In this document: positions 2,592 to 4,420 of the stretch, piece by piece
Layout: the number at the start of each line of letters is the position of its first letter
Position numbering within the stretch: the stretch's first letter is position 1
Assembly: GCF_018613935.1 (NCBI RefSeq)
Contig: NZ_JAGGPF010000009.1
Span: 496,001 to 560,000, forward strand
Direction of reading: 5' to 3'
From: Agromyces sp. ISL-38
GTDB lineage: Bacteria > Actinomycetota > Actinomycetes > Actinomycetales > Microbacteriaceae
Length of the DNA: 64,000 nt
Translations under genes and position numbers: made by a program
Notes under the pieces: model-generated
What the model was told of the DNA's origin: nothing
Seen by the model: only the letters and a program-made list of their open reading frames with translations
Database searches by the model: none

Positions 2592-3614
2592 TCAGAAGTC
2601 CCAGTCCTCATCCTCAGTCACCACGGCCTTGCCGATCACGTACGACGAGCCCGACCCCGAGAAGAAGTCGTGGTTCTCATCCGCGTTCGGGGAGAGGGCC
2701 GAGAGGATCGCCGGGTTCACGTCGGTGACCGAGGACGGGAACATCGACTCGTAGCCGAGGTTCATGAGGGCCTTGTTGGCGTTGTAGTGCAGGAACTTCT
2801 TGACGTCTTCGGTGAGGCCGACGCCGTCGTAGAGGTCTTGCGTGTACTGCACCTCGTTGTCGTAGAGCTCGTAGAGCAGCGAGAACGTGTAGTCCTTCAG
2901 CTCATCGCGCTTGGCCTGATCGACTCGCTCGAGTCCCTTCTGGAACTTGTAGCCGATGTAGTACCCGTGCACGGCCTCGTCGCGGATGATGAGGCGAATG
3001 AGGTCGGCGGTGTTGGTGAGCTTCGCCCGCGACGACCAGTACATGGGCAGGTAGAAGCCCGAGTAGAACAGGAAGCTCTCGAGCAGCGTCGAGGCGACCT
3101 TGCGCTTCAGGGGCTCGTCGCCACGGTAGTACTCCATGACGATCGCAGCCTTCTTCTGCAGGTTCTCGTTCTCGACCGACCAGCGGAAGGCGTCGTCGAT
3201 GTCTTTCGTCGAGCACAGCGTCGAGAAGATCGACGAGTAGCTCTTCGCGTGCACCGACTCCATGAACGCGATGTTCGTGTACACCGCCTCTTCATGCGGG
3301 GTGATCGCATCGGGAATCAGCGACACCGCGCCGACCGTGCCCTGGATCGTGTCGAGCAGGGTGAGGCCGGTGAACACCCGCATCGTCAGCGTCTGCTCTT
3401 CAGGCGTGAGCGTGTTCCACGACTGCACGTCGTTCGACAGCGGCACCTTCTCGGGCAGCCAGAAGTTGTTGACGAGCCGGTTCCAGACGTCGACGTCTTT
3501 CTCGTCTTGGATCTTGTTCCAGTTGATCGCGTTGACGTGGGAGACGAGCTTGAGCTTGCCGCCGACGTGTGCCGGGTCGTTCTGTGCCGAGTTGACCGGG
3601 TCTGTGAGGGTCAT
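2592..3614 (-). CDS. nrdF: Ribonucleoside-diphosphate reductase class Ib, beta subunit NrdF
   Basis: The small (R2F) subunit carries the dimetal-tyrosyl radical cofactor used to reduce ribonucleotides with NrdE. The expected metal ligands and radical tyrosine are visible in the 340-residue protein: Asp88 (TLLDTIQG), Glu119 and His122 with Tyr126 (MESVHAKSY), Glu179 (LLESF), Glu213 and His216 (RDEAVHGYY). The start is the ATG at 3614, which overlaps the TGA of the upstream endonuclease gene as ATGA and has AGAGG upstream; a longer frame to 3659 adds non-homologous residues. It is the last gene of nrdHIE-HEG-nrdF, and no clear terminator was seen after it. Confidence 0.97.
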
Positions 3615-4420
3615 GAGGTGCCTCTTTCGTTGTTCTGGTCGTCGACGCAGTGTCGACAAGTCTCTTTGAAGACGCCCTTGTTGGTGTGATGGCGAGTGTG
3701 GGCGCTCCGCACGCTTGAAGGCATCGGCCTGTCCTTGCGCACCGCTGACATTTTCGCGCGGGTCTCATCGCTGGCGGTCTTCCCGAAGTTCGGGTTGAGT
3801 TCGCCTCGTCGCATTTCAGAGAGCCGTTCGCGAGACTCAGCTGACATCGTGTGGCCGAAGCTCGGGTGATCGGCGCCGAACTTTCCGAAGTTCGGGTTCT
3901 CGGGTCCGCTGTAGCTGCCCTTCCGCATGGCAGACCACTTCGCCTTCTGTTCGTCAGAATGCGTGCGTCCCCACACGGGAGAGTCCGCACCGAATCGGTG
4001 GACGCCGGTCGGGCGCCCCCGCGCGCGATCGCCAGCCGCCTTCCGCTGCTCATCTGTCCAAACCACACCAGTCGGGCCGAGCCCACCCTCTGAGAGGTTC
4101 AACAGGCGGTCACCTGTCGCACGATAGAGCGCAATCCATCCGATCTCTGCGTGGCCGAGGTCTTCGCGAGTCGTCACAACATGCTCGAGCACAACGACCT
4201 CGTACGCGTCATCCGGACTCTTTCGCAGCCAGTCGTAGAACGGGGTCTTACGCCCCTTTCGAGCTACCTTTCGATGCTCACTCATTCGACGCCTCAAAGT
4301 CTTTGTGGTCTGCCCCACATAGCGATACTCGCCCGTGGCCCGCACTCGGAACCCATAGACGGTGCCCACGATTGGAGCTCCCTGCCCCAATTCTGGCGAC
4401 CACTCGACTGTCTCGATCAT
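3611..4420 (-). CDS. Free-standing GIY-YIG homing endonuclease with NUMOD3 repeats inserted between nrdE and nrdF
   Basis: The 269-residue protein has an N-terminal GIY-YIG nuclease domain (residues 18-110): [23 protein letters not shown], the catalytic Glu92 in [10 protein letters not shown] and Asn108 in LLNLSEGG. Residues 150-235 hold repeated NUMOD3-type DNA-binding modules ([54 protein letters not shown]). The tail HTRHHTNKG...ETCRHC resembles the zinc-finger-like ends of phage homing nucleases. It starts 4 bases after the nrdE stop and its TGA overlaps the nrdF ATG, so it is fully embedded in the operon and cotranscribed. There is no sign of an intron or intein. GC is lower than in the nrd genes, which suggests transfer. 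Confidence 0.9.

Follow-up and report, generated by a model that had tools for sequence, protein, structure and literature searches.

The window analysed here, a stretch of 64,000 nucleotides from Agromyces sp. ISL-38, carries on its minus strand a gene (3611..4420) whose 269-aa product is probably a homing endonuclease with GIY-YIG and NUMOD3 domains, free-standing rather than intron-borne, at home directly after nrdE. The gene is a member of a site-faithful but patchy family found over many actinobacterial genera, and not an isolated oddity. This reading rests on the architecture of the protein, the position shared among Actinobacteria and phages, the patchy occurrence, a phylogeny that departs from that of unlinked host genes, the decay of some copies and the replacement of nrdE ends in a phage and in Microbacterium. 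On this reading the protein would cleave DNA and may still be mobile at present.

The nuclease and its place in the nrd operon

The operon reads nrdH-nrdI-nrdE-nuclease-nrdF, entirely on the minus strand. Profile matches identify the glutaredoxin-like nrdH (7032..7265), nrdI (6551..6973), nrdE for the large subunit of a class Ib ribonucleotide reductase (RNR) with the C-terminus CVSCTL (4425..6587), and nrdF for the small subunit (2592..3614). The stop codon of nrdE ends at 4425 and the nuclease ATG lies at 4420, leaving a gap of 4 nt, while at the other end the nuclease TGA (3613-3611) overlaps the nrdF ATG (3614-3612) in the sequence ATGA. The initial annotation had described a full-length GIY-YIG/NUMOD3 gene fitted into precisely this junction, and both the open reading frame and the Pfam matches bear this out. 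The flanking nrdE and nrdF are whole and the nuclease lies outside any intron or intein. In the genome of origin, the assembly of which is 92.9% complete, nrdE is the sole match to the RNR large-subunit profile PF02867, and the only match of the nuclease is itself.

Pfam places the GIY-YIG catalytic domain at residues 21-101 (4118..4360, minus strand; E 1.7e-5, over the cut-off), and the catalytic domain is predicted to have a fold of GIY-YIG type, with fold alignments stopping by about residue 120. A separate DNA-binding part is also present, as NUMOD3 matches two stretches (E 2.2e-15, Pfam), the best of which covers residues 189-225 (3746..3856, minus strand); this region also shows a weak profile match to the DNA-binding domain of I-TevI, 1i3j (E 0.02). 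NCBIfam TIGR01453, which bears the name of a group I intron endonuclease, matches the protein over its cut-off. An identity as a group I intron endonuclease was nevertheless rejected, since Rfam finds no such intron in positions 2500-7500, where its single match stays under the gathering score; the absence of an intron reported in the initial annotation is thereby confirmed.

Intact copies of the nuclease, broken ones being excluded, were aligned in sets of 13 and 40 rows. We take Tyr22, Tyr34, Arg45, His49, Glu92 and Asn108 to be the catalytic residues of the GIY-YIG domain. The first five are invariant across the 40 rows; Glu92 is also found in 13/13 rows, and Asn108 in 13/13 and in at least 90% of the 40, so that these two positions are indeed intact, as had been claimed. 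At the C-terminus His241, His245, Cys255 and Cys258 (3647..3700, minus strand) form a set resembling a zinc finger. All four are invariant in the 13 rows, the first three in the 40 rows as well, with Cys258 kept in at least 90%, and the set is common to gp111 of phage Talia1610.

The predicted anti-Shine-Dalgarno duplex upstream of the nuclease start is weak in nine of ten Agromyces carriers (-1.0 to -3.7), the tenth, G024, reaching -8.6; in G059 and G049 the calculation took the nuclease start lying furthest upstream. Most carriers' nucleases thus have no good ribosome-binding site of their own, and translation is probably coupled to that of nrdE. The ribosome-binding site of nrdF lies inside the last codons of the nuclease (in the window GAAAGAGG, 3618..3636, minus strand, including a rare AGA codon), with a predicted duplex of -7.2 as compared to -6.75 in 39 empty genomes and -4.6 (s.d. 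2.5) in a coding control. AGA occurs in the last 12 nuclease codons in all ten carriers, while elsewhere it accounts for 5 of 300 arginine codons in nuclease bodies and for 0 of 212 in nrdE. Since the last codons of the nuclease supply the site for nrdF, the operon can probably keep working.

Distribution in bacterial genomes and phages

Eleven of the 60 Agromyces genomes match the nuclease. NrdF was detected in 58, ten of which carry the gene between nrdE and nrdF; in the other 48 the spacer is empty, with 16 to 445 nt between nrdE and the NrdF match. Insert-free strains, for which the initial annotation had suggested a search, are therefore the majority. The match in G045 lies away from nrdE-nrdF and spans residues 21-136 at 34% identity. 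In wider samples the nuclease was matched in 5/398 genomes of the family at E 1e-10 and in 5/394 of the class at E 1e-20. The 15 matches of the genus, family and class searches comprise 13 genes between nrdE and nrdF (ten in Agromyces, and those of G083, G749 and G804), a remnant behind nrdE (G296) and the distant one in G045. A scan of named genomes by exact peptide patterns, the count of which is a lower bound, yielded 46 loci, 43 of them behind nrdE and 39 of these with nrdF next. The 43 come from 16 actinobacterial genera and from one metagenome-assembled genome labelled proteobacterial, which is actinobacterial in sequence; the remaining three loci have 27-33% identity and neither nrdE nor nrdF in the flank. 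Counts from the Agromyces, family, class and named sets overlap and are not additive. Plasmid relatives amount to 8 records at 27-28% identity. The initial annotation had called such a gene unusual in a bacterial class Ib operon; the setting stands, but the gene is one of a scattered family rather than a single curiosity.

Four of the 43 loci (three in Mycolicibacterium, one in Nocardia) have the nuclease after nrdE with no nrdF found within the next 5 kb, which suggests that the gene is anchored to the nrdE 3' end and not to the junction itself. The uninserted junction of relatives had been proposed as the target. Empty relatives do exist in Agromyces, but these four loci and the footprint within nrdE described below shift the probable anchor to the end of that gene.

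Several copies are decayed: that of G083 has a nonsense codon within the GIY motif, and those of L154, L156 and L110 are frameshifted or truncated. G020, G048 and G065 have long empty spacers, which were searched for nuclease remnants by tblastn and by eye in six-frame translations; none was found. In L110 (the locus of G296, 5673-14257) the broken nuclease behind nrdE is followed by about 7 kb, including a second nrdF-like gene on the opposite strand, and then by nrdF. As for other contents of the spacers, those of L051 (G020) and L108 (G065), 445 and 611 nt long, hold similar-looking small ORFs (RSSNTGRFV / RSAKTGRYV); the two spacers belong to two different families, and the ORFs are perhaps another kind of insert. 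Directly behind nrdE, the empty spacers of Agromyces loci such as L048, L053 and L057 contain repeats built as GGTCGAGTAG..CG..CG(T)ATCGAGACC.

Distant GIY-YIG relatives were found in phages in 54 records. The relative ranked first among named phages is Talia1610 gp111, with 31% identity across 89% of the protein; the operon of this Arthrobacter phage, nrdH-nrdI-nrdE-GIY-YIG-nrdF, places the gene as in the Agromyces window. A relative also lies behind nrdE in 7 of 38 viral contigs, six of them with nrdF next and one at the contig end, and the suggestion that phage nrd operons be searched for the same gene has thus been productive. One of these contigs, L164, is 158 kb long. L160 groups with Microbacterium schleiferi in the nuclease tree and the L162 copy is broken, so that both may be bacterial DNA. 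In the two further phages inspected, Gordonia phages GMA2 and Sixama, the relative sits elsewhere than at the nrd junction; in Sixama (L113) it lies beside the genes for thymidylate kinase and thymidylate synthase, another site of nucleotide metabolism. Microbacterium phage A3Wally (L260) has three small ORFs in the nrdE-nrdF gap, where the annotation lists no nuclease.

Phages Racecar and Mimi have NrdE proteins 99.4% identical to that of Talia1610, yet an empty 90-nt spacer. The nrdE genes of Talia1610 and Racecar differ at 40 of 2139 sites, only 9 of which fall in nt 1-2009 and 31 in nt 2010-2139, and the nrdE-nrdF spacer is replaced. Identity is 99% over the 5 kb upstream, 91% in nrdF and about 90% over the following 2 kb, which indicates a sharp left border and a longer replacement on the right. 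As the divergence continues for 2 kb past nrdF, the event may have been a wider recombination. A donor of the Talia1610 nrdE end was looked for among the fetched nrdE ends; none exceeded 76%, and those at 76% were Racecar and Mimi themselves.

The 3' end of nrdE and the history of the gene

The last 45 nt of nrdE (4425..4469, minus strand) form a replaced or hypervariable segment, which we propose as the putative homing target. Among the 39 Agromyces pairs with at least 96% identity elsewhere in nrdE, identity over the last 30 nt is 74.5%; in the three divergence bands that follow it is 74.1, 73.3 and 71.3% (221, 971 and 361 pairs). In the genome group g32, which nrdE identity of up to 96% suggests to be Microbacterium, the same four bands gave 97.8 (6 pairs), 95.0 (89), 86.5 (248) and 79.8% (92) for the best 30 of 144 genomes, and in this sample of empty genomes the nrdE end mostly tracks the rest of the gene. 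The corresponding values for the best 30 of 74 genomes of group g22 were 93.3 (2 pairs), 86.7 (18), 90.2 (14) and 82.9% (34). The ends of nrdF and nrdI showed no drop in identity of the kind seen at the end of nrdE. The drop in Agromyces is of similar size whether or not a carrier is involved, namely 18.6 points between empty genomes (27 pairs) versus 19.1 between carriers and empty genomes (11 pairs), and the sole close pair of carriers showed none.

For Microbacterium, seven of the eight named carriers (L122 was left out, while L156 was kept though decayed) were compared with the best 30 of the 144 g32 genomes, to which all figures in this paragraph refer. In the 92-96% band the last 30 nt were 73.0% identical between carriers and empty genomes (31 pairs) as opposed to 92.8% among empty ones (144 pairs); the corresponding values were 73.9 versus 85.7% in the 90-92 band and 72.2 versus 80.8% in the 88-90 band. 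The carrier effect was absent from the 86-88% band (66.1%, 6 pairs, versus 67.9%, 11 pairs). Calculated per genome it had a P of 0.0004, or 0.001 after regression on the rest of nrdE. The carriers' ends are 65-74% identical among themselves, that is, no more alike than they are to those of empty genomes, and odd ends also occur in 2 of the 30 empty genomes.

A column scan in Agromyces identified a position 22 nt from the nrdE end (4446 in the window, minus strand) as the one most associated with the presence of the nuclease, with T in 5/10 carriers and 1/48 empty genomes. The max-z permutation P over nrdE was 0.041 and that of a codon scan 0.0155, both from permutations that ignore kinship; neither nrdF (P 0.28) nor rpoB (P 0.34) gave an association in the same scan. 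A Leu/Gly grouping at the nrdE end (7/10 carriers, 3/48 empty) was picked after seeing the data and is given zero weight. Extra flank identity among Agromyces carriers relative to permuted labels was not detected in any of nine windows (best 77/2000), again with permutations that ignore kinship. Possible signs of co-conversion are the nrdE ends replaced in Talia1610 relative to Racecar and in the Microbacterium carriers, while the carrier-sharing test in Agromyces was null. The carriers' ends can be explained by conversion from a foreign nrdE end, and the scrambled ends of empty Agromyces might be scars of past visits.

The ten Agromyces carriers need ten changes on the rpoB tree (59 rows, with G040, in which NrdF was not found, counted as a non-carrier), eight of them forced by starred branches; carrier labels shuffled on the same tree gave a mean of 9.5. 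The window genome is sister to the empty G019 and G031 (100/100). In AU tests the Agromyces nuclease data reject the trees of rpoB (dlnL 248), recG (244) and nrdE (200), and the catalytic (N) and DNA-binding (C) halves reject each other's tree, a mosaic structure that is also visible between G059 and the window nuclease (50% identity in the N part, 87% in the C part). The nrdF tree is contradicted less strongly: the N half does not reject it (AU 0.19), and for the whole nuclease the AU test rejects it whereas the SH test does not (0.05-0.06). General recombination accounts for part of the discordance, since the nrdE and recG trees disagree with that of rpoB as well. Across genera, the nuclease tree is in broad agreement with taxonomy and groups by genus, which is expected if homing needs similar flanks, but also if inheritance is mostly vertical. 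These trees kept 50 of 57 rows (49 for NrdE), leaving out L104, L154, L156, L162, L165, L151 and L122 as broken or incomplete; in L122 and L151 the best segment aligned to part of nrdE only.

The median dN/dS of the nuclease in Agromyces is 0.20, pointing to purifying selection. Its synonymous divergence exceeds that of both rpoB and nrdE in all 43 pairs with a finite value, that of mfd in 36/36 and that of recG in 44/45. Its GC3 is 68-86% versus 92-99%, which makes the synonymous-divergence test unsafe. Recent transfer between Agromyces, considered as a candidate, was not favoured, as the low synonymous divergence it implies was not seen, the GC3 difference leaving this test weak either way. 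The nuclease alleles of different Agromyces are probably old.

Mechanism, alternatives and known systems

In the mechanism that we propose, the protein would recognise and cut the 3' end of uninhabited nrdE alleles, in the region that codes for the CVSC tail and its surroundings. With the donor as template for repair, the nuclease would be copied together with the donor's own nrdE end. That end would restore NrdE and would presumably be poorly cut. A more specific form, a home-and-rescue drive on the essential nrdE, in which the element carries a recoded, cut-resistant version of the CVSC-tail end and each conversion both repairs and immunises, is a tentative idea that we consider doubtful on balance; the dissimilarity of the Microbacterium carriers' ends to one another lowers its odds. 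If it were true, the scrambled ends of empty Agromyces would be scars of invasion, and a bacterial homing history would be readable from a single 30-nt segment.

There is a smaller but real chance that the gene is an old resident that no longer moves, having entered actinobacterial nrd operons in ancient times and passed on mainly vertically, with repeated loss producing the scatter. Such a history would account for a nuclease tree ordered by genus, synonymous differences above those of recG in nearly all pairs, the decayed copies and the agreement of the N half with the nrdF tree. It sits badly with the rejection of the rpoB, recG and nrdE trees within Agromyces, the mosaic halves, the conserved active-site positions and low dN/dS, the replaced nrdE ends of carriers, and phage near-twins that differ by the nuclease gene. 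The pattern that, according to the initial annotation, would mark a domesticated gene, namely near-universal presence with vertical phylogeny and mutated active sites, was looked for and not found. An improbable alternative makes the nrdE end a hot spot of recombination or integration for some other reason (for example, an attachment site restoring the gene end), with the nuclease as a passenger. The Agromyces ends, 71-76% identical in all divergence bands even among empty genomes, and the unrelated small ORFs in some empty spacers fit this idea. However, the window junction, with its 4-nt gap and 4-nt overlap, is too tight for another element, the empty g32 ends mostly track the rest of the gene (best 30 of 144) while Microbacterium carriers deviate, and the drop is absent at the nrdF and nrdI ends.

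We find it slightly harder still to believe that the host has adopted the nuclease, either for protection by cutting the nrd genes of infecting phages or for regulation of the operon. Arthrobacter phages do carry nrdHIEF and the gene is under purifying selection, but it occurs in only 10 of 58 congeners and is missing from the closest relatives, G019 and G031, broken copies persist, and a phage itself carries such a gene. Chance placement of a GIY-YIG gene in the operon, which the many phage records of distant relatives might suggest, is refuted by the ten Agromyces carriers and by the same position in 43 of 46 named loci, and is given almost no weight. The homing endonuclease behind nrdE is the reading we retain.

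Most of the free-standing homing endonucleases known so far come from phages. In one open-access literature library we found no report of a nuclease after nrdE in bacterial class Ib operons. The position of T4 mobE between nrdA and nrdB and the existence of split phage RNR genes are described in PMC3653736 and PMC2988022. According to the latter, mobE is free-standing, begins where the large-subunit gene stops and has no promoter, and translational coupling was suggested for it (PMC2988022). Nuclease genes have also been described in the vicinity of RNR genes of phages and at the borders of exchanged segments (PMC10448857). The window nuclease resembles mobE in being free-standing, intronless and located between RNR subunit genes, and its translation signals with nrdE and nrdF resemble the coupling proposed there (PMC2988022). 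In contrast, mobE encodes an HNH enzyme in the class Ia nrdA/nrdB genes of a phage, with nrdB as target gene, while the window nuclease is a GIY-YIG protein of class Ib operons, mainly on bacterial chromosomes, with its footprint in nrdE. The T4 seg endonucleases are likewise GIY-YIG proteins, free-standing and between phage genes, with reported flank co-conversion (PMC2988022); they differ in being phage-only, in their insertion sites and in cleavage that is reported hundreds to thousands of bp away. The footprint of the present family, unlike those distant cleavage sites, is no more than about 30-130 nt from the gene. The T4 td intron endonuclease, I-TevI, is intron-encoded, and in this it differs from the window nuclease, which is outside any intron. 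Hef/SegH of T4-related phages is said to replace mobE and mobC. Given the likeness to mobE, the space separating RNR subunit genes may be a preferred niche.

What emerges is a family that keeps to one site in class Ib RNR operons, on actinobacterial chromosomes and in some phages of these bacteria. Some sites are empty and some copies broken, the proteins are mosaic, and nrdE bears a footprint. For experiments on invasion, immunity and loss the family provides a system in bacteria, and the 3' end of nrdE may hold a record of past homing.

Fragments of nrdF were also observed outside the operon proper. They lie downstream of nrdF at about 5-10 kb in G049 (L067, C25:221646-227053) and at 0.9 kb in G042 (C1:2577935-2578018), and elsewhere in the genome in G017 (C1:481794-482435).
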